Source: Gammaproteobacteria bacterium (GTDB lineage: Bacteria > Pseudomonadota > Gammaproteobacteria > Xanthomonadales > SZUA-5). Taken from it: 53,211 nt of DNA. This document shows positions 14,508 to 30,516 of the stretch, piece after piece. The stretch covers positions 1-53,211 of the forward strand of contig JAUIFV010000008.1 in assembly GCA_030430155.1 (NCBI GenBank), read 5' to 3'. A program made the position numbers and the translations under genes. Position 1 is the first letter of the stretch; each line of letters begins with the position of its first letter. The notes below the pieces were generated by a model that was given only the letters and a program-made list of their open reading frames with translations, did not search any database and was not told the origin of the DNA.

Positions 14508-17500
14508 CTACGATCGCGAGCGCAAAATGCCCACCGTCGCGATCAACAGCAGCAGCGACAGCAGCGCAGGCCATCCCAGGGTGGGAATCTGCTGCACCGC
14601 TGCGCCGACCACCGCCGATGCACTGTTGTTCTCCGGAATCGGATCGTTCAGAGCCGAGCGAGTCGATGCGCTCACCGTGCTCGCACCCGGCGCCGATGCC
14701 TGCACCAGAACTTCAACCGAGCGGGTCGCGCCGACCGCGGTGGCGCCCGGATACGTGCAGCTGAGCAGCACCAGGCCGCCGGCTGGCGGCGAACTGGCAC
14801 AGCTGCCGCCGGTACTGGGCGTGGCACCGACGATGATCAGCCCTTGCGGGATCTCCAGATCGATCTCGACGTCGGTGGCCTCGCCGGTGCCGTTGTTCGT
14901 TGCGGTCGCCGAAATCACGTAGAACTCGCCGACCGTCCCGGCCTGCGGCACCGCGCTCAGGGCGATGGCCAGATCGGCACCGTCATCGTTGATGATGGTG
15001 CCGATGCCGGTGGCCCGGGCCAGCGTGACCAGCTGATTGGACGGCGCGGACAGGACCACGCTGAAACTCTCATCGGCTTCGAAGTCGCTATCGCCGACGA
15101 TGCTGACGGTGATTGTTTGGGTCTCACCCGCGCTCCCTGCGAAGCTGAGCATATCGCTGACCTGCGCGTAGTCACCGGGCGCCACCGCGCTGCCGTCAGC
15201 GCTGGCATAGGGAACGCTGAAGCCGCCGTCGACGGCAGTATCCAAGGTCACCGTAAACACCGCCGAGCTGTTTGCCCCGGTGCCTTCGATCACGCTGACA
15301 TCGTCGATAGCGAGCGTTGCGGTGTCGTTGTCCTGGTTGGTGACCGCGACGTCGTCCGGATTCAGACCGTCATAGTTGCCGTCGCTGCTCATCACCGCCG
15401 CAGTCACGATGGTGTAGGCCACGTCGCCATCAACGCTGGGGTCGTCCACCCCGGTCACTGTCACCGTTTGCGGGGTCATCCAGTTCGATGGGGTGAACAC
15501 AACTGAGGTGACGTCTGCCGTGCCCTCGCCCGGATCGCTGCTGCTGATGCCAATCGTGACATCGCTGGAAGGCTGCACATCGACGGCGATGGTAAAGCTG
15601 TCGCTGCCGCCGGCTTCGGTGGTCACCAAGCCCGTCGTCGGGCTGACCGTTATGGTCGGATTGTTGACGTCGATGACCCACGTGCATGCTGAGGTCTCGC
15701 CGTCCGGGTTGGTCGTATTGCCGTTAAGGACCACATCCTCGATCGCGGTGTGGGTCGCGGACCATTCCACGTTGAAGTTGTTGTCGGGATTGGCATCCGG
15801 CGTCATCGGCACGCCATCGACCGTCGCATCAGTGCCGTTGGTGGAATCCAGGCTGAGGGTGATCACCGTACCCACATCGACCGGGGTGACGGTGGTATCC
15901 GGGTCCTGGGTACAAATGCTGGTGGGCGGGTTGTAGTCGATGTCGCAAACCAGCGTGTCGGAGACCGGGCTGCCCATGCCGTCGAATCCGTTGGCGTTGA
16001 TGGTGATGTTGGTGGCATCGCCGACGATGTTGTTGACGACGAAATTCATGTTGCCACCGGGAAGATTGGTGGTAACGCCGTTATAGATGACATCCCAATC
16101 GGTCACGCCGGCATTGCCCTGCAGCGGAATGGTCACCGATCCTTCGATGTTGGCACTGCTGATTGCCGTGCAGTCGGTTTGGTTCTCAGGCGGAATGAAG
16201 CCCAGCATCGCCGTGTCCATGAATGACGTGCCGTCCGCCGCCTGCCCCACGGCGGTGTAGTTGCCGATATCGGCGCCCGAGGCCGCGACGACGTTGTAGA
16301 CATCGTCGAAGGTCAGCGTTGTGCCAACCACACTGTCGGGAACGACCAAATCGATGCTGCTGCTCGGAACGGTCAGGGTGCCGAACTTGCTGCCATCCCA
16401 AACCACATTGGTCAAAGTCACGTCGACACTGAAGGGCTGACCGGGAACCGGTGTCGGGGGATCAAAGCTGACTGTCGCCACGCCGGGCGCAAAATCGGGA
16501 GCCAGATTACACGGTGTACCGCCAACAAAGGTTCCGCTGGCCGGGGGGAACTCGGTTTCGTAGGTCGCAGTAAAGCTGCGGTTGGCGCCAGCACTGGGGC
16601 TGCCATCATTAGTGGTGTCGATGCTCAGCATCGTCGTCGCCCCGGCGGCCGGGATGGTGACATCAAGTCCGTCAGATGAGGTCAGGTTGATCTGATCGAC
16701 CGATCCCGTTCCGGGGAAGGTGAAATCCAGCATCGCGCCCAACCCGCCGGCCTGAGGGTCCAGCCAAGTGGGATTGACCGGACTGGTCGATGCGCCGCTG
16801 CAGTTGGGCACGCCGAACACGGTCACCGTCCCGGTCGCCTGGGCCAGATTGAAGTTCTCGACGATCTGCACGCGCTCGATGCTGGTGCCGTCGTCGTAGG
16901 TGTAGGCATTGGCACCGGACACCACCCCATCGGGAGTCGCGCTCACTGTCAGCTGTGCTGTCCCTGGATTGGCGATAATCGGAATCTCAAGCACACCGAT
17001 CAGGGCATCGGTGTTTTGCGCCACGGCACCAATGCTTGCATTGGTCGCAAAGTCGATCACGAAGGCCTGCTTGCGGCCGGCACCACCCTGGTTGTTGTTG
17101 ATCAACCACCCGGCGTTGGCGTTGATCTGCGGCTCAAAGTCGACTGCTGGCCCGCTGCCCTGCGTTGCCTGATTGAATATCAGCGCGCAACTGGGTGAAG
17201 CGCTGCCGCTGACGTTGGCCAGATCCGTCCCCGGGTTGGTGAGTCCGGTCAAGCCACCGCCAGTGGCAACGAAGGAATTGGCCACCAGCATGTCGGTAGC
17301 AATCCCGCCGCTGATAATGCCGGTGTCTCCGCTGATCTGGACGGTGAAGGTGATATCGCGCAGATCGCGATTGTTCTGGAATCCGTCATTGATAAAGATC
17401 GGCACCTGCACGCAGCTGGCCGAAGTCATGTCAGCAGGATCAATGGTGACCGATCCCACCTTCAGATCGATCTGCTGTCCGCCGGCGGTAGCCAGCCCGG

Positions 17501-17543
17501 GACCGGCCAGTGCCAACGCACAAGCGGCAAAAAATCGTTTCAT
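14508..17543 (-). CDS. Large IPTL-CTERM surface protein with Calx-beta and DUF11-like repeats
   Basis: A 1011-residue secreted protein. It has a signal peptide (MKRFFAACALALAGPGLATA), then about 600 residues of beta-sandwich-like modules rich in Thr, Asp and Asn. Around residues 640-740 is a module with 'VVFTPSNWMTPQTVTVTGVD', seen in large adhesin-like proteins. A Calx-beta domain follows ('AVFTVTLDTAVDGGFSVPYA' to 'GTIINDDG'), then a DUF11-like module ('ATNNGTGEATDVEIDLEIPQ'). The last 26 residues are IPTLGWPALLSLLLLIATVG plus a basic end, an IPTL-CTERM sorting signal. Such signals are processed by an exosortase (XrtH in characterised families); none is in this window. Probably a cell-surface or released calcium-binding protein; the ligand is unknown. 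Confidence 0.85.
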   Translation of the reverse strand: MKRFFAACALALAGPGLATAGGQQIDLKVGSVTIDPADMTSASCVQVPIFINDGFQNNRDLRDITFTVQISGDTGIISGGIATDMLVANSFVATGGGLTGLTNPGTDLANVSGSASPSCALIFNQATQGSGPAVDFEPQINANAGWLINNNQGGAGRKQAFVIDFATNASIGAVAQNTDALIGVLEIPIIANPGTAQLTVSATPDGVVSGANAYTYDDGTSIERVQIVENFNLAQATGTVTVFGVPNCSGASTSPVNPTWLDPQAGGLGAMLDFTFPGTGSVDQINLTSSDGLDVTIPAAGATTMLSIDTTNDGSPSAGANRSFTATYETEFPPASGTFVGGTPCNLAPDFAPGVATVSFDPPTPVPGQPFSVDVTLTNVVWDGSKFGTLTVPSSSIDLVVPDSVVGTTLTFDDVYNVVAASGADIGNYTAVGQAADGTSFMDTAMLGFIPPENQTDCTAISSANIEGSVTIPLQGNAGVTDWDVIYNGVTTNLPGGNMNFVVNNIVGDATNITINANGFDGMGSPVSDTLVCDIDYNPPTSICTQDPDTTVTPVDVGTVITLSLDSTNGTDATVDGVPMTPDANPDNNFNVEWSATHTAIEDVVLNGNTTNPDGETSACTWVIDVNNPTITVSPTTGLVTTEAGGSDSFTIAVDVQPSSDVTIGISSSDPGEGTADVTSVVFTPSNWMTPQTVTVTGVDDPSVDGDVAYTIVTAAVMSSDGNYDGLNPDDVAVTNQDNDTATLAIDDVSVIEGTGANSSAVFTVTLDTAVDGGFSVPYASADGSAVAPGDYAQVSDMLSFAGSAGETQTITVSIVGDSDFEADESFSVVLSAPSNQLVTLARATGIGTIINDDGADLAIALSAVPQAGTVGEFYVISATATNNGTGEATDVEIDLEIPQGLIIVGATPSTGGSCASSPPAGGLVLLSCTYPGATAVGATRSVEVLVQASAPGASTVSASTRSALNDPIPENNSASAVVGAAVQQIPTLGWPALLSLLLLIATVGILRSRS

Positions 17544-23133: not shown

Positions 23134-25515
23134 TTGCACAGCTATCGGCGCCACACCATTGCCACCGCCATCTCCATCGCCCTTTTGGCCAGCAGTTCCA
23201 TGGCGGCCGCCTCGGATAAGGTTCGCTTTCTGACTTCCGCGCAGACCGGCGAATCGAAATCCCTGGCGCTGGGCTATCTGCATAGCCAGCGATCGCAGCT
23301 CGGCCTGACCGAGGCGGATATTGCCGAGATGGATTTGCGCGATGACTATCGCAGCAAGCACAACGGGGTCCGGCACCTGTACTGGCACCAACGTCATCAG
23401 GGCATCGCTGTGCACAACGGCATACTGGCCATCAACGTGGCCAGTGATGGCAGCATCATCAACCTCAATAGCGGCTTCGTCGCTGATCTCGCATCCCAGG
23501 TCAACAGCACCGAAGCCAGCATCGATCCGGTTGCAGCGATTACCGCGGCAGCGGACGATCTGCAGTTGAGCAACCGTGCCCCATTACTGCTGCTGCAGGA
23601 TCTGGGCGGCCCGACGCGCAAGGCGGTCTACTCCAACGGCGGAATCTCCGCTGACGACATTCCAGTGCAGCTGATCTACCAGCCGATGCCCGACGGCAGA
23701 GTCCGTCTGTCCTGGGACATGACCATTCGCGAAGTGTCCGGACCGAACTGGTGGTCGCTGCGTGTGGACGCCGAAACCGGCGAAGTCATCAGCCGCGTGA
23801 ACTATCTCGCCCACGCCGAAGCCGAGGCCAAAGCTGGCGACGACGAAGCGCAGTATCTGGTTTTTCCGTTCCCGTTCGAAAGCCCGGATGAAACCCCGCA
23901 GGTCCTGGTCAGCGATCCGCACGATCTGGCCGCCTCGCCCTTCGGCTGGCACGACACCGATGGCGTCGCCGGTCCCGAGTTCACCGACACCCGCGGCAAC
24001 AACGTGATTGCCCAAGAAGACTTCGATGGCAACAACAGCGGCGGTTCGCGCCCCAGTGCCACCGGCAGCAACCCGATGGTCTTCAACTTCCCATTCAATC
24101 CGGACAACGACCCGGAGGTGGGCGACAACCTGAACGCCGCCATCGTCAACCTCTTCTACTGGAACAACATCATGCACGATGTGACCTACCAGTACGGTTT
24201 CGACGAGCCCGCAGGCAACTTCCAGACCAACAACTACGGCAACGGCGGCGCCGGCAATGACGCGGTGCGCGCCGATGCGCTGGATCAGATGACCGGCGGG
24301 CCGCAGGGTCCGCAGAGCGGCAATGCAAACTTCCAGACCCCGCCGGATGGCTCGCCGCCGCGCATGCAGATGTTCCGCTTCAACTACCCGTTCAGCCAGC
24401 AGGTGACGGTCAACTCGCCCGCGTCCATCGCCGCCTCCTATACCGCCCGACCCTCCGTCAACGGCGGCACCGGCATGGGTCTGACCGCCGACCTCGCCCT
24501 GGTCGAAGATGGCACCGCGCCCACCGCAGACGGCTGTGAGACCGTGGTCAACGACCTCACCGGCAAGATAGGCGTGATCATCTGGAATCAGGGCGCATGC
24601 AACTCCAGCGTGTTCGTCGCCAACGCCGCCGCGGCAGGTGCGGTGGGCGTGGTCATCGTCGATAACGTCACCCCGCTGAGAACCAACTTCGGCGGCAGCG
24701 CGTCTGTTCCCTCGGTCTCGGTGTCGTCGGACGATGGGCAACTGTTGGTAACCACGCTGGCCGGAGAGGCAGTCAACGTGACCTTGGAAGACAATGACGT
24801 TGGCCCTGCCGATCGGGATAGCGATCTGGATCACGGCATCATCGCGCACGAGTACGGTCATGGCATATCCAACCGGCTCACCGGCGGCCCCTCGCAAGCG
24901 TCCTGTCTGGTGACCACCTCGGGTGGTATAACGTCGGAGCAGGCCGGCGAAGGCTGGAGCGACTTCTGGGCACTGGTGCTACATGCCAAGGCCACCGATT
25001 CTCGCGACACGCCGCGGCACGTCGGTACCTATGCCTCATTCCGGGATCGAGACATTGGACCGGGCATCCGCAACTTCCCCTACTCACCCGACCCGGCGGT
25101 CTCGCCGCAGACCTATGCCAACGTTGCTGGCACCAATGCGCCACACGGCGTCGGTGAGATCTGGGCCGGCGCACTGTGGAACATGTACTGGAATCTGGTG
25201 GACGATTACGGATTCGATCCTGATCTGTACAACGGCAGCGGCGGCAACAACCTGACCATTCAACTGGTCATGGATGGCATGAAACTGCAGCCCTGCTCGC
25301 CGACCATGGTGCAGGCCCGTGACGCCATTCTGCTCGCCGATCAGACCAACAACGGCGGTGCCAATCAGTGCGCCATCTGGCGCGGCTTTGCGGCCAAGGG
25401 TCTGGGGCTCAATGCCGATGGAGGCGCATTCGCGCGCGGCGACGAGACCGAGGACTTCGAAGTGCCGGTCGAGTGCGACGCTGACACCATTCACATCGAC
25501 GGCTTCGAGAGCTGA
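23134..25515 (+). CDS. M36 (fungalysin-type) metallopeptidase with PA domain
   Basis: The 793-residue product starts with TTG, supported by AGGAG at 23122-23126, and has a signal peptide (cut near residue 26). Residues about 45-110 are an FTP propeptide ('GVRHLYWHQRHQGIAVHNGI'). The catalytic zinc motif HEYGH is at residues 572-576, and the third ligand Glu606 sits in 'AGEGWSDFWALV'. A PA domain is inserted at about residues 450-555. The end of the protein is 'DADTIHIDGFES', a short tail shared in form with other exported proteins here. It is a secreted zinc protease, probably self-activated. Neighbours include a second exported peptidase. Confidence 0.92.
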   Translation: MHSYRRHTIATAISIALLASSSMAAASDKVRFLTSAQTGESKSLALGYLHSQRSQLGLTEADIAEMDLRDDYRSKHNGVRHLYWHQRHQGIAVHNGILAINVASDGSIINLNSGFVADLASQVNSTEASIDPVAAITAAADDLQLSNRAPLLLLQDLGGPTRKAVYSNGGISADDIPVQLIYQPMPDGRVRLSWDMTIREVSGPNWWSLRVDAETGEVISRVNYLAHAEAEAKAGDDEAQYLVFPFPFESPDETPQVLVSDPHDLAASPFGWHDTDGVAGPEFTDTRGNNVIAQEDFDGNNSGGSRPSATGSNPMVFNFPFNPDNDPEVGDNLNAAIVNLFYWNNIMHDVTYQYGFDEPAGNFQTNNYGNGGAGNDAVRADALDQMTGGPQGPQSGNANFQTPPDGSPPRMQMFRFNYPFSQQVTVNSPASIAASYTARPSVNGGTGMGLTADLALVEDGTAPTADGCETVVNDLTGKIGVIIWNQGACNSSVFVANAAAAGAVGVVIVDNVTPLRTNFGGSASVPSVSVSSDDGQLLVTTLAGEAVNVTLEDNDVGPADRDSDLDHGIIAHEYGHGISNRLTGGPSQASCLVTTSGGITSEQAGEGWSDFWALVLHAKATDSRDTPRHVGTYASFRDRDIGPGIRNFPYSPDPAVSPQTYANVAGTNAPHGVGEIWAGALWNMYWNLVDDYGFDPDLYNGSGGNNLTIQLVMDGMKLQPCSPTMVQARDAILLADQTNNGGANQCAIWRGFAAKGLGLNADGGAFARGDETEDFEVPVECDADTIHIDGFES

Positions 25516-25638
25516 GCGCAACCAACCGCGGCGATCGTGCTTATCGCAAGGCGCAATCGCCGCGGTTCCAGGACCGGCCTTCCCCAAGCTAGCCATGCGC
25601 GCAGGCTAAAATGATGGGTGGCTTTCCGGGAGTAGTCG

Positions 25639-26394
25639 ATGCTCGATCAGATCCATCACGGCGAGGTTATTGAGCTCCGCCTAACCCGCAAACCGGTCAA
25701 CGCGCTCGATCCCGCGTTGGTGGCAGCGCTGCGTGAGGCAGTCGAGCAGGCACCGGCCAATGGCGCTCGAGGGCTGGTATTGAGCGGCGCCGAGGGCATT
25801 TTTTCGGCTGGACTGGATGTACCGACGCTGGTTCAGCTTGATCGCTCCTCGATGGCCGAGTTCTGGAGCAACTTCCTCGGCACCATGCGCGCACTGGCCT
25901 GCTCGCCTATCCCTACGGCTGCGGCGATCACTGGACACAGCCCGGCAGGTGGCGCGGTGCTGGCGATCTGGTGCGACTACCGAGTGATGGCCAGGGGCGA
26001 GTTCCGCATCGGTCTGAATGAGACCCAGGTGGGCTTGGCCATTCCAGCGGTCATTGTTGCCGGGTTACAGCGCCTGATCGGCGCGCACCGCGGCGGATTG
26101 CTCGTCGCCGAGGGCCGCCTCATCGATCCCGATTCAGCGCTGCATTACGGCGTCGTCGATGAGCTGGCATCGCCGGACTCCGTTGTCTCGCAGGCGCTTG
26201 CCTGGATGAGTGAGCAGTTGGCCAAACCCGCGCACGCCTACGCCGCTAATCGGGCGACGGCACGTCGCGATCTGCAGACCTTGTTCGCCGATCCGCAGGT
26301 CACCGACGAGGAAGGATTTCTCGCCGGCTGGTTCTCTGCACCTACTCAAGCGGCGTTGCACACGCTGGTAGCGCAACTGAAGTCGAAGCATTGA
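25639..26394 (+). CDS. Delta3,delta2-enoyl-CoA isomerase-like (crotonase family, ECI1 type)
   Basis: The 251-residue product is a crotonase-fold protein. 'GIFSAGLDVPTLVQLDRSSM' near residue 55 and 'GHSPAGGAVLAIWCDYRVMA' near residue 100 supply the CoA pocket and oxyanion hole. The segment 'RIGLNETQVGLAIPA' is the mark of the mitochondrial ECI1-type isomerase branch, where the Glu is catalytic. It should shift double bonds in unsaturated fatty acyl-CoAs during beta-oxidation. A GGAG ribosome site precedes the ATG. The next gene begins inside its stop codon (TTGA). Confidence 0.82.
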   Translation: MLDQIHHGEVIELRLTRKPVNALDPALVAALREAVEQAPANGARGLVLSGAEGIFSAGLDVPTLVQLDRSSMAEFWSNFLGTMRALACSPIPTAAAITGHSPAGGAVLAIWCDYRVMARGEFRIGLNETQVGLAIPAVIVAGLQRLIGAHRGGLLVAEGRLIDPDSALHYGVVDELASPDSVVSQALAWMSEQLAKPAHAYAANRATARRDLQTLFADPQVTDEEGFLAGWFSAPTQAALHTLVAQLKSKH

Positions 26395-27869
26395 GGGCAC
26401 GCTGCGGACACCGTTGGGGATTGATTGCCGGGCTCGCACTGGCGGCTATGCTGGGTGGATCGCCACTCGCGGCCTGCCCCTTGAGCTCCAGCGAAGTGAT
26501 TCGCGCTACCGGCTTCGAAGACTGCCCGCGATCACAATCGGCATTTCTCGGCCTGGACGCGGATTTGCTGATTGATTCCACCGAGTCGCAGACCGTGCTT
26601 GCTCATAGCCTGTCGCTGAGCTCGCCTGCTCGAATCCTTGCAGTGGCTGACGGTCGTCATTTTCCGGTCGATGCTCCTGCCGGCACCCTACGTATCCGCA
26701 TCAACGGAGATGACAGCCATAGCTCCATCCCGGTTACCGACTGGGGCTCATCGCAACGTCCGGTGATGCACAGCTACAACGTCTTGGCCAGCGCTGTCTT
26801 GCAGGCTGGGGTCCACAGCGTCGAGCTCAGTGCCAGTGCACACCCCACTCGACCCGGGCGCTTTGTAGTCGGCTCCGGCAGCGGCCTGTCTGTTCTGGTC
26901 CAGCCGCTCTCCAGTATCAACGTTGCCTCACTCCCCGGCGAAAGCGAGGCAATCAATCTCACCACCTACGATCCGGACAACGGCATCGACGTCAATGAGG
27001 GCGATTTGGACCGTCCGTTCGTGCCGCTGCTCAGCAACAACGTCGGCAATCGCAGCGGACGGCCGACAGTCGCCGTCAGCCTGGCCTCCGGGCGCGGATT
27101 CAACGCCTGCGACAGCGGCATCGACAACGGCTTCGGCGACGCGCTGCTGGGCCTGTTCAGCGATGGCGTGTGTCAAAGCACCTACACGGCGGCGTGGAGT
27201 GTCAACGATCTGGATCCCGATGCCGAGCTGCAGGCGGCAATGATGCTGCACGGTGCGCACCCCTTGTTCGCTGGACAACGGCGTCAGATCAGCCTAATCG
27301 GCAGCGAACTTGCCTTCGGCTCGGATCAGGCCGGTTCACCCAGCGGACCACACGAGAACGGAGTGTGCTGGGGCTTGGGCAGCGCGCGACTGATCACCGC
27401 CAGCAGTGGCGCGGTCGTCGGTTCGGCACCCTTCGCGCCGGAACGGCTGTGCTCCACCTACACCTGGCGCTGCGTGGCCACCACCATAGGCCAACCCGGC
27501 TGCCCGCCGGCGGGGACCGATGTCACCCTGACCACCGCGCAGATCGTGATCCCGGTGGGTCATGACGGCATCGTCCAGTTCAACGCCCGCACCCGTGTCC
27601 AGGCCGACAACGCCGACGGTTTCGCGACCTTCATCCTCGGGCTGAAGATCGACGGCGTCGCCGTCGGCAGCACGGGCGTGCAGCAGTTGGCGCTGGGCGC
27701 GGGCCAGGCTTCCAGAACCCTCAGCGCGTCCTATCTAAGTGCGCCCAACAGCGCCAGCGGGACTTTGGCGGTAGGCCTGCACACGGTTGAAGTCTATCTG
27801 CGCGCGGAGGGCGAGTTGCTCAACTTTCCCAGCGTGCCCACTGACCTGACGCTGACCTGGTTCGATTGA
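26391..27869 (+). CDS. Secreted beta-rich protein of unknown function with internal duplication
   Basis: A 492-residue product I cannot assign. The TTG at 26391 overlaps the isomerase stop (TTGA) and starts a complete signal peptide (MRARCGHRWGLIAGLALAAM..., cut near residue 28). Right after the cut site is 'SEVIRATGFEDC', resembling the 'GFE' tails of neighbouring exported proteins. Two halves look alike: 'LQAGVHSVELSASA' near residue 140 and 'LAVGLHTVEVYLRA' near residue 465, each following a strand-rich stretch. Several Cys (for example 'FNACDSGIDNGF', 'LCSTYTWRCVATT', 'GQPGCPP') suggest disulfides. Likely a surface or extracellular protein; coupling to an isomerase gene is odd and may be accidental. 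Confidence 0.7.
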   Translation: MRARCGHRWGLIAGLALAAMLGGSPLAACPLSSSEVIRATGFEDCPRSQSAFLGLDADLLIDSTESQTVLAHSLSLSSPARILAVADGRHFPVDAPAGTLRIRINGDDSHSSIPVTDWGSSQRPVMHSYNVLASAVLQAGVHSVELSASAHPTRPGRFVVGSGSGLSVLVQPLSSINVASLPGESEAINLTTYDPDNGIDVNEGDLDRPFVPLLSNNVGNRSGRPTVAVSLASGRGFNACDSGIDNGFGDALLGLFSDGVCQSTYTAAWSVNDLDPDAELQAAMMLHGAHPLFAGQRRQISLIGSELAFGSDQAGSPSGPHENGVCWGLGSARLITASSGAVVGSAPFAPERLCSTYTWRCVATTIGQPGCPPAGTDVTLTTAQIVIPVGHDGIVQFNARTRVQADNADGFATFILGLKIDGVAVGSTGVQQLALGAGQASRTLSASYLSAPNSASGTLAVGLHTVEVYLRAEGELLNFPSVPTDLTLTWFD

Positions 27870-27886
27870 GGCTGGCCCTCCAAGCC

Positions 27887-28043
27887 CTACTGCGGCTTTC
27901 GCAGGCGTGCTGTGGCGCGGCTTGCTCCCTCCATTCAACTCAACTTACTGTCAAGTACGCTCTCGTCGACCCCGGTCCGCGATCCGCACCACAGCACGCT
28001 TGCGAAACCCTCGCTACGAAGGTTCATGAATGATGCGGGCTAG
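27887..28043. repeat. Dispersed CTACTGC...GGCTAG element, long copy
   Basis: A 157-base element begins with CTACTGCGG and ends with a block (AACCCTCGCTACGAA, then GGTTCATGAATGATGCGGG and CTAG) that matches the copies at 44352-44419 and, more weakly, 50168-50215. The middle (about 27910-28000) is absent from the other two. It fills most of the gap between the unknown secreted protein and the subtilisin gene. No gene is seen in it. Confidence 0.7.
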
Positions 28044-28179
28044 AGCACCGATTCACTGCAGATTCAGAAATGATGCAGCGCAACAATTCACCAACGCGGC
28101 TGGGGAACGTGCTATAGGTAACGGGTTTCGGGCCGCGAGCCTGATCCCGCCGACAAACTACATGAGGGTTGTACACACC

Positions 28180-30516
28180 ATGCGTCTTGCCCAAAGCATA
28201 ACGCTGGCCGTTGCAGCAACGGTTTCAGCCTACTCTTTCAATAGCGCTCACGCCAGCGATCTGCAGACCGCGTCCAGCGCGATTGAGTCCTACATCGTCA
28301 AGTTCAACGAACCGGGTCTGCTCTATTACAACGGCGGCGTTTCCGGGATTCGTGCCACTGCGCCTGAAGCGAACGGCCAGCGCAAGCTGGACGCAAGCTC
28401 TGCAGCAGCAATCCAGTACCGCGATCACCTCAAGAGCGTGCGCGCCGGGTACATGAACGCCATCCTGGGCGCCATCGGCCGTGTCCCCGAAGTCGAGCAC
28501 GACTACGACGTGATGTACAACGGCCTGGCGCTGAAGTTGAGCGCGGCCGACGCCGACAAGATCCGCCAGCTGGACTTCGTGCAGTCTATTGAATTGGGCG
28601 GCGAGTATGAGCTGGGCACCGATTCCGGCCCGGCCTTCATCGGCGCGCCGGCAGTTTGGGACGGCACCTCGACCTTTGGCAACATGCCCACTCGCGGTGA
28701 AGGTGTGGTCGTCGGCGTGATCGACTCCGGCGCCAATTCCGACCATCCCTCCTTCGCCAACGACGCCAGCTGCGGATTCAGCGCCGGCAGCCCGAAGCTG
28801 CTCAGCGCCAAGGACTGCACCCAGCCCAGCTGCGTCGGCGGCGACCCTGAGGACACCAGCACGGTCAGTGGCGGCCACGGCGTGCACACGGCCTCAACCG
28901 CCGCCGGCAATGCACTGATGGCCGGCATCCTGGTCAACGGCGTCGAACTGCCGTTCAACATCTCCGGCGTTGCCCCTTGCGCGGCGGTGCGCACCTACAA
29001 GGCCTGCGAGATGACCTGCGACGGCGCGGACCTGCAAGCTGCGCTGCAGGAAGCCATCTTGGACGGCGTCGACGTGGTCAACTACTCCATCTCCGGCGGC
29101 ACCTCCCCGTGGAATGACTTCGACCGCAACTTCCTCGACATGGTCAATGCGGACATTTATGTGGCAGCTTCCGCTGGCAACACGCGTACAGCCACGCCCG
29201 ACCCGGTCGGCGCGGTGAACCATCGTGGACCCTGGGTGATGACCGTCGCCAACTCCTCCCACGACCGCATCGTTGCCTTCGACGTGGACATCGCGGGCGG
29301 TCCGCAGGACAGCGGAGCGATTCCCGGGACCGGCGTAGGCTTTCCTGATGGCGCCACCATCGACGATGTCGCAGTGGCTCTTTCGTTGGGTAGTGAACTT
29401 GGCTGTAACAATCCCGACACCACAAACCCCTTCGCGCCCAACTCGATGGATGGCCAGATCGCCCTGATTTCTCGGGGCGCGTGTTCCTTCGAGGAAAAAG
29501 TCACCAACGCCACTGAGGTCGGTGCCACTGGCGTCATCATCTACAACAACGCACCGGGCCTTCCCATCGTGATGGGGGGATTGGAACCGACGACGATTCC
29601 CGCTGCGATGGTCTCCAACCCGAACGGCGTGGCCATTCGTGACTTCTTGATAGGCACGCCCGCCGCACAGATGACCGTCACCGGTCCTGCGGTGCGGATT
29701 ACCGACCCGGCTTTCGGGGATATCCTCAACGCCAGCAGTCTGCGTGGACCGCAGGAGACCTTCGACGTCACCAAGCCTGACATCACCGGTCCTGGCACCA
29801 ATATCTTCGCGGCCGTTGGTGCCGTCGATGGCGAGTTCGGTTTCCTTTCCGGCACCTCGATGTCCAGCCCGCACCTGGCTGGCGCCGGCGCGCTGGTCCG
29901 CGCGGCCAACCCGACCTGGACCCCGATGGAAATCAAGTCGGCGATCCAGCTCACCGCATCTCGTGACGGTTTCTCTGACGATTCCACCACGCCGTGGGAC
30001 GCTGATGAGGTCGGAAACGGTCGAGTGGACCTGAACAATGCGGCGATCTCCGGCCTGGTGATGAACGAGACTTTCGCCAACTTCCTTGCCTCCAATCCGG
30101 CCAGTGGCGGCAACCCGCGCACCCTGAATCTGCCCAGCATGCGTCGGATAGACTGCCCCGGCCAATGTGCCTGGACCCGTACCGTCCGCAACACGCTGGC
30201 CAGCGCTCAGGACTGGAACGTTCAGATTGAGGCTCCGGCTGGCGTGCATCTGCGCGTGGTGCCAGACACCTTCAGCTTCACCGGCAACACCGCCGAGACG
30301 CAGGAGATCACCATCTTCGCCACGATGTTGACCACCATCACTGCGGTGGAGAACATCGTCTTCGGTCGGGTCAACCTGGTGCCGGCGACGACATCGGTTC
30401 GCGGCGCGAACGTGCCCGAGGCGAGCATGACAGTGGCGATTACCGGCACTGAAGCGCCGGGGATGCCGACCGCTGACATGCTGATGATTGACAGCATGGA
30501 AGACATCAGCGAGTAA
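28180..30516 (+). CDS. Subtilisin-like serine peptidase (S8) with PA domain
   Basis: The frame is open from 28030, but ATG 28180 follows GAGG and starts a good signal peptide (MRLAQSITLAVAATVSAYSF, cut after AHA). The product is 778 residues. An I9-like propeptide follows, then the catalytic triad: Asp182 in 'VVVGVIDSGANSDHPSF', His233 in 'SGGHGVHTASTAAGN' and Ser560 in 'SGTSMSSPHLAGAGALV'. A PA domain is inserted at about residues 385-490 ('LISRGACSFEEKVTNA'). The C-terminal 150 residues are beta-rich, ending in 'TADMLMIDSMEDISE', similar in form to the tail of the M36 enzyme. An exported endopeptidase. A terminator follows. Confidence 0.92.
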   Translation: MRLAQSITLAVAATVSAYSFNSAHASDLQTASSAIESYIVKFNEPGLLYYNGGVSGIRATAPEANGQRKLDASSAAAIQYRDHLKSVRAGYMNAILGAIGRVPEVEHDYDVMYNGLALKLSAADADKIRQLDFVQSIELGGEYELGTDSGPAFIGAPAVWDGTSTFGNMPTRGEGVVVGVIDSGANSDHPSFANDASCGFSAGSPKLLSAKDCTQPSCVGGDPEDTSTVSGGHGVHTASTAAGNALMAGILVNGVELPFNISGVAPCAAVRTYKACEMTCDGADLQAALQEAILDGVDVVNYSISGGTSPWNDFDRNFLDMVNADIYVAASAGNTRTATPDPVGAVNHRGPWVMTVANSSHDRIVAFDVDIAGGPQDSGAIPGTGVGFPDGATIDDVAVALSLGSELGCNNPDTTNPFAPNSMDGQIALISRGACSFEEKVTNATEVGATGVIIYNNAPGLPIVMGGLEPTTIPAAMVSNPNGVAIRDFLIGTPAAQMTVTGPAVRITDPAFGDILNASSLRGPQETFDVTKPDITGPGTNIFAAVGAVDGEFGFLSGTSMSSPHLAGAGALVRAANPTWTPMEIKSAIQLTASRDGFSDDSTTPWDADEVGNGRVDLNNAAISGLVMNETFANFLASNPASGGNPRTLNLPSMRRIDCPGQCAWTRTVRNTLASAQDWNVQIEAPAGVHLRVVPDTFSFTGNTAETQEITIFATMLTTITAVENIVFGRVNLVPATTSVRGANVPEASMTVAITGTEAPGMPTADMLMIDSMEDISE

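Follow-up and report, generated by a model that had tools for sequence, protein, structure and literature searches.

Substrates of type II secretion systems (T2SS) fold in the periplasm. The determinants by which they are recruited are thought to be structural (PMC7949064), and no signal that T2SS substrates have in common for crossing the outer membrane has been identified (PMC11981180; also PMC7949064). PelI has a disordered Fn3 loop to which the PDZ domain of OutC binds, the Ig-fold of VesB is a PDZ-dependent signal that works with EpsC (PMC12369372), and in Pel3 the Fn3 loops (loop 3) act as a T2SS signal (PMC7949064). The tag described here resembles the PelI/Pel3 loop 3-OutC and VesB-EpsC pairs in combining a flexible exposed segment, often of an Fn3 or Ig domain, on a folded periplasmic protein with a GspC of the PDZ type (PMC7949064, PMC12369372). 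The PelI, Pel3 and VesB signals, however, differ from substrate to substrate; they are composite and structural in nature, and no sequence common to them has been reported, whereas here one motif recurs on dozens of unrelated proteins, mostly at the C-terminus.

A second group of described systems pairs a short, mostly C-terminal tag on many unrelated exported proteins per genome with a processing enzyme: GlyGly-CTERM/rhombosortase, PEP-CTERM/exosortase, LPXTG/sortase and MYXO-CTERM. Our tag shares these general features but has neither the tripartite C-terminus of such signals (motif, transmembrane helix, basic residues), since only 0 to 12 residues follow it, nor their fixed C-terminal position, copies being found in loops and at mature N-termini as well. 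No matching NCBIfam model was seen. The C-terminal domains of type IX secretion (T9SS; Por secretion tail) are also found on M36 peptidases and at the C-terminus, yet T9SS tails are whole domains and the tag is seven residues long. The M36 model for T9SS cargo (type A CTD) reached 767 bits against a cut-off of 885 and covered the protease part only, and no T9SS tail model was listed for the tag carriers. Type I secretion uses a C-terminal signal without an N-terminal signal peptide, and the carriers do have signal peptides.

Three motif copies in the window and in their orthologs

The window (the whole stretch of DNA analysed, 53,211 nucleotides from a gammaproteobacterium of the Xanthomonadales) contains three neighbouring genes for exported proteins with copies of the motif:

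23134..25515, + strand: M36 (fungalysin) metallopeptidase that has a signal peptide, an FTP propeptide, a PA domain and a tag at its C-terminus (open reading frame; Pfam Peptidase_M36 at E 1.6e-135, PA, FTP)
25477..25512, + strand: C-terminal tag DADTIHIDGFES of the M36 peptidase, core I-H-I-D-G-F-E (sequence; a tag ends 16/16 M36 orthologs)
26391..27869, + strand: exported middle protein, carrier of an N-terminal tag (open reading frame; homologs within the family)
26490..26525, + strand: N-terminal tag SEVIRATGFEDC of the middle protein, directly after the signal peptide, residues 34-45 (kept in homologs L116 and L117)
28030..30516, + strand: S8 subtilase of cucumisin/SBT3 architecture (I9-type propeptide, PA, Fn3-like domain at the C-terminus), whose C-terminal tag is degenerate (Pfam; the ortholog model matches the PDB structures of cucumisin and SBT3)
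30469..30513, + strand: degenerate C-terminal tag TADMLMIDSMEDISE of the subtilase (aligns with the VFANGFE, LFANGFE and LFANGFE ends of the nearest orthologs)

All three strings were found where a preliminary description of this DNA had placed them, and they fit the expression given there; that expression had been built on the same three strings, so its fit proves little. None of the three copies fits the strong core F-x-[DN]-G-F-E that emerged from the rest of the genome (0/3). We nevertheless judge them to be genuine tags, two of them degenerate and all of them weak forms of a tag that is strong elsewhere, D-x-[ILV]-F-x-[DN]-G-F-E, because orthologs and homologs have the tag at the same places. 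In the M36 orthologs it is readily recognised at the end, for example as LFKNGFE, IFADSFE or FFRDGFETLP. The subtilase (Pfam domains Peptidase_S8, PA and fn3_6) reads LMIDSME in register with the ends of its three nearest orthologs, to which it is 53-63% identical. For the middle protein, which has no family match in Pfam or NCBIfam, three homologs were available, and the N-terminal position is considered genuine because two of them have RADGFE in the same place (VIRADGFEPC in L116, VPRADGFESC in L117); in the third, L119, it has eroded to VIHSSDFSSC. The structure model of the middle protein was poor (mean pLDDT 41) and is left out of the argument. Its N-terminal tag is framed by cysteines 29 and 45, which are invariant across four homologs; a disulfide between them would perhaps present the tag as a loop.

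Elsewhere in the window, a protein of 1011 aa (14508-17543, - strand) ends in AVQQIPTLGWPALLSLLLLIATVGILRSRS, an end that presumably resembles an IPTL-CTERM sorting signal of the exosortase type. A classical CTERM system thus seems to be in use in this genome as well.

A short tag on exported proteins and its place within them

In the source genome (5.06 Mb), a search at the DNA level for F-x-[DN]-G-F-[ED] returned 41 sites, against 2 for the reversed control. These sites, read in frame, together with one F-x-x-G-F-E case make up our set of carriers. In 36 proteins the motif lies at most 12 residues from the stop, and in 21 of these it is exactly C-terminal, with 1-12 residues following it in the other 15; the tag is strongly enriched at protein ends. 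Across the 36 carriers the core is close to fixed (F 36/36, [DN] 35/36, G 36/36, F 36/36, E 34/36), and around it D occurs at -3 in 13/36, [ILV] at -1 in 30/36, and A is the commonest residue at +1. When 26 carriers were aligned, the only invariant columns were the F, G and F of the tag, and by sequence the carriers are mutually unrelated apart from it. Their domains include peptidases of families M6, M12, M14, M28 and S8 as well as FG-GAP, PQQ and Calx-beta repeats. No NCBIfam CTERM model for the tag was found in the 26 carriers checked, and the motif strings did not turn up in the library of papers searched.

The suggestion that this is a tag of exported proteins is borne out by signal peptides, which a crude home-made predictor called in 27 of the 31 complete carriers as compared with 32 of 85 other ORFs (p 1.9e-6). 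A Sec/Tat signal peptide, as expected of T2SS substrates, is thus predicted for most of them. Two tagged proteins, L131 and L124, have lipobox-like signal peptides (LAGC and LSAC), and tagged lipoproteins may therefore exist. One carrier, L025, has a longer form of the tag, FIDGFESGDTSSWS. We also observed that an exactly C-terminal tag is followed by a TAG stop in 17 of 21 cases (e.g. L041-L061), as opposed to 28 of 85 other ORFs (p 1e-4); the stops listed after the tag in the f12 genomes G012 and G031 are all TGA, and the bias may be specific to this genome.

An alignment of 30 subtilisins was informative on the place of the tag. The tag position (INDEPENDENCE) varied between proteins, each of which had a single tag. 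In close orthologs it is C-terminal. In L069 (VIFADGFD) and L071 (VIFAHGFE), and in degenerate form in L066, it precedes an added domain, and in eight others (L074, L076, L078, L080, L082, L083, L090 and L091) it lies inside a loop that connects strands of the Fn3-like domain, where L075, L084, L085 and L087 have degenerate copies. Complete subtilisins with a loop copy have lost the C-terminal one, and in complete sequences two places were never tagged together. Four orthologs had no recognisable copy (L067, L070 and L089 of genus g13, and L081 of G086), all four sequences being incomplete. In a structure model of L080, whose fold matches cucumisin and SBT3, both subtilases with a C-terminal Fn3-like domain, the loop copy (residues 752-758) forms a gap of pLDDT<50 inside an otherwise confident domain.

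Judged by these alignments, the tag is a position-independent linear motif. The earlier idea that it can work at either end thus holds for the N-terminal copy kept in homologs of the middle protein, and extends to internal loops. The loop copies and those after the signal peptide imply that the tag is no substrate of C-terminal sorting enzymes and that a free carboxylate is not needed. A PDZ ligand of the C-terminal carboxylate kind would have the free C-terminus right after the motif, and here 15/36 tags are followed by further residues while others are in loops.

Co-occurrence of the tag with a PDZ-type T2SS

The preliminary description had mentioned similar endings on many exported Xanthomonadales proteins, and among Pseudomonadota the tag is indeed specific to this order. 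Most families of the order have amplified it to about 20 to 200 sites per genome; counts are low in family f8 and do not rise above background in most of f2 and f12. Beyond the order, the motif anchored at a stop codon gave 25 matches in 386 genomes as compared with about 40 for the reversed control, which is chance level and rules out a spread over the Gammaproteobacteria at large. Named hits were in Dokdonella, Tahibacter, Pseudofulvimonas, MAGs of Lysobacterales and one MAG of the Thermoanaerobaculia. This last genome (G676, Acidobacteriota) has 87 F-x-[DN]-G-F sites where the control has 1; its tags (L140, L160, L171, L182) are C-terminal and of a long form ending DGFExGxxxxWSxxxP.

The strict GFE form is scarce in most genomes of genus g13 (family f10), with 2 to 9 sites, yet T2SS-A, the system described below, is present there. 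M36 tails in this genus read HRDRFE or HFDRFE, and once G or R was allowed the counts rose, for example from 8 to 102 in G037 and from 9 to 60 in G009. On these sequences, genus g13 has changed the tag to F-x-D-R-F-E (e.g. L106, L107) and keeps T2SS-A.

The T2SS secretin was first searched for across the order as a possible refutation of a link between the tag and type II secretion. GspD passed the cut-off in 115 of 121 genomes, tag-rich or not, so that T2SS in general was ruled out as the partner of the tag. The secretin scores suggested two kinds, however: an Xps-type secretin almost everywhere and a kind A in the tag-rich genomes, and only the latter (T2SS-A) tracks the tag. The source genome has a T2SS-A cluster on contig C45, with a PDZ-bearing GspC, GspD and GspE, adjoining genes for a DEAD-box helicase and a thioredoxin. 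Matches to Pfam comprise T2SSC and PDZ, N0 and Secretin, T2SSE, and T2SSF; the gene order is C-D-E(-F), with GspF often present. T2SS-A therefore has the parts of a PDZ-type T2SS (GspC with HR and PDZ, GspD with N0 and secretin, GspE, GspF). The profile of its GspC, with HR and PDZ domains, matches the structures of OutC (6hcg), PulC (5hj1) and EpsC (2i4s), and its secretin is of the XcpQ (5wln) and Vibrio (5wq8) kind. Unlike those systems, T2SS-A coexists with a separate Xps-type T2SS in the genome, and the sequence read near the cluster showed none of its other genes, such as those for pseudopilins G-K and GspL/M. Most GspC loci beside a secretin of the T2SS-A type have a PDZ domain, compared with 0/5 of the Xps-type loci. 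This agrees with the literature, where Xanthomonas XpsC is set apart from OutC and EpsC with their PDZ domains (PMC11981180).

We then used the A secretin as a query over 398 Xanthomonadales genomes, calling T2SS-A from the secretin alone at E <= 1e-90 and calling genomes tag-rich when they had at least 20 sites of F-x-[DN]-[GR]-F-[ED] above the control. T2SS-A was found in 92 tag-rich and 25 tag-poor genomes; 8 tag-rich and 273 tag-poor genomes had no hit, with MAG incompleteness affecting some of these calls. In the same order, the 277 genomes that had not been used in forming the idea were distributed 37/14/4/222 (p 7.5e-30, p-values here ignoring kinship), the 99 genera 30/9/0/60, and family f12 22/3/0/115. 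The phylogeny of Xps-type secretins of 44 genomes, taken as a proxy for that of the species, calls for three label changes. These are readable as losses of T2SS-A in f2, f12 and f8, each with low tag counts, and the independent events behind the co-occurrence would thus be about three clade-level losses. The pattern also holds for single protein families: tagged M36 peptidases occur in T2SS-A genomes only (21/21), as do 29 of 30 subtilases of the tagged S8 type, the exception being in a fragmented MAG whose congener has T2SS-A. Genomes without T2SS-A do keep an S8 paralog of about 1400 residues, which lacks the tag.

Among the 25 tag-poor genomes with T2SS-A, some have divergent secretins (f2, f12) and some belong to g13, f7, f8 or f9 with reduced counts. 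The eight tag-rich genomes without a hit are mostly fragmented MAGs with congeners that have T2SS-A; for G061 and G841, neither fragmentation nor congeners give an explanation. In the near-closed genome G019 (2 contigs; family f9, genus g19), no T2SS GspD was found, and its 9 strict tag sites are far fewer than in most other genera of that family.

Proposed recruitment to T2SS-A and alternative readings

We consider it probable that D-x-[ILV]-F-x-[DN]-[G/R]-F-[ED] serves as a short linear signal by which the lineage-specific T2SS-A recruits its substrates, the link between the two being correlational. This reading is favoured because the precedents pair a PDZ-type GspC with a flexible Fn3 or Ig loop, and the A-type GspC has a PDZ domain whereas the five Xps-type loci are without one. 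Carriers would cross the inner membrane by means of their signal peptide and, after folding in the periplasm, present a single copy of the tag on a flexible segment, be it a C-terminal tail, the mature N-terminus, an interdomain linker or an Fn3 loop. T2SS-A would then bind the exposed tag and export the carrier. Computation establishes that the tag exists, that it is concentrated on exported proteins and independent of position within them, and that it co-occurs with T2SS-A and not with the Xps-type T2SS; that passage through T2SS-A requires the tag, and that a PDZ domain reads it, is what we infer.

The candidate reader is the PDZ domain of GspC, which forms the weaker step of the proposal and is advanced tentatively. 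Tag number was related to PDZ similarity with rho 0.53 at 34 loci outside the training set. Divergence of the PDZ relative to the HR domain is, by contrast, unsupported as a quantitative predictor of tag number, with a Spearman coefficient of 0.08 over all loci; a selectively diverged PDZ next to a conserved HR was found only in the tag-poor f8 genera g46 and g56. It may also be, at about the same tentative level, that the tag is a transplantable, sequence-defined T2SS signal. A dedicated T2SS would then read one motif at any exposed position through the PDZ of its GspC, each genome would have between tens and about 200 unrelated proteins recruited in this way, and the motif could drift in form together with its reader, as F-x-D-R-F-E in one genus.

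The preliminary description had left open whether the tag serves sorting, secretion or surface attachment, and had proposed to look for a co-occurring secretion or sortase-like gene. What co-occurs with it is a secretion machine, the PDZ-type T2SS, and not a sortase; the anatomy of the carriers speaks against sortase-type sorting. M36 peptidases elsewhere do have cleaved signals, as reflected in the T9SS-, rhombosortase- and myxosortase-dependent M36 models of NCBIfam, and most copies of the tag are C-terminal, as one would expect if a sortase, exosortase, rhombosortase or PorU-like enzyme cleaved it. Such a signal should, however, be accompanied by a transmembrane helix and basic tail, and the short or absent sequence after the tag has neither; cleavage at copies in Fn3 loops or behind the signal peptide would necessarily sever the protein itself, and the carriers checked matched no CTERM model. 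We therefore rejected this reading as highly improbable. Surface retention is harder to dismiss, although we still regard it as unlikely. A docking motif that binds a surface receptor after export would suit both the position independence of the tag and its carriers, the majority of which are large enzymes and repeat proteins of a kind to be expected at the surface, and the correlation with T2SS-A could then be indirect. It would need a receptor whose phylogenetic profile equals that of T2SS-A, with losses in the lineages that lost this system, and none is known, while recognition of an Fn3 loop by a PDZ domain is already documented for T2SS (PMC12369372, PMC7949064). By analogy with this published contact, and from the co-occurrence, the tag probably acts in secretion rather than in surface attachment. 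More generally, the true partner of the tag could be some other gene that disappeared from the lineages which lost T2SS-A. The two lipoprotein-like carriers and the tags in one Acidobacteriota genome also count against recruitment to T2SS-A.

The next matches of the GspC PDZ profile are the PDZ domains of DegQ and DegP, which raises the idea that the tag marks its carriers for a periplasmic chaperone or protease of this kind instead of for secretion. We hold this to be very unlikely, since loop and N-terminal copies are ill-suited to recognition of a free C-terminus, such proteases are expected in tag-poor genomes too, and the tag follows T2SS-A. As improbable as cleavage by a sorting enzyme is a functionless relic or spreading DNA repeat, which might for instance have arisen by duplication of a lectin-like domain's first strand (IFxDGFESGDxSxWS) onto the ends of genes. 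The long form in L025, the similar one in the Thermoanaerobaculia and the over-used TAG stop behind terminal tags would be in line with such an origin. A repeat is hard to reconcile, however, with synonymous codons that vary freely, with three core positions invariant across unrelated proteins, with orthologs that keep one tag while its place moves and with three lineages that lost the tag together with T2SS-A.

If the tag is a T2SS recruitment signal as proposed, its seven residues, approximately I-F-x-D-G-F-E, are probably the long-sought kind of address label for export. The question of the T2SS signal would become directly testable by grafting and deletion, secretomes could be read from sequence across the whole order (Dokdonella, Tahibacter, Pseudofulvimonas and relatives), and the tag could find use in biotechnology as a secretion tag. 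The order itself offers a natural experiment, in that lineages losing the machine have lost the tag and one genus has changed the motif.

Finally, the divergent neighbour of the T2SS-A gspC gene in G105 (L192:11301-13025) and G031 (L194:11926-13533) encodes an exported protein that ends in DVIFADGFD and DIIFRYGHE, respectively. A large protein of 954 or 972 aa is encoded a short distance after it.
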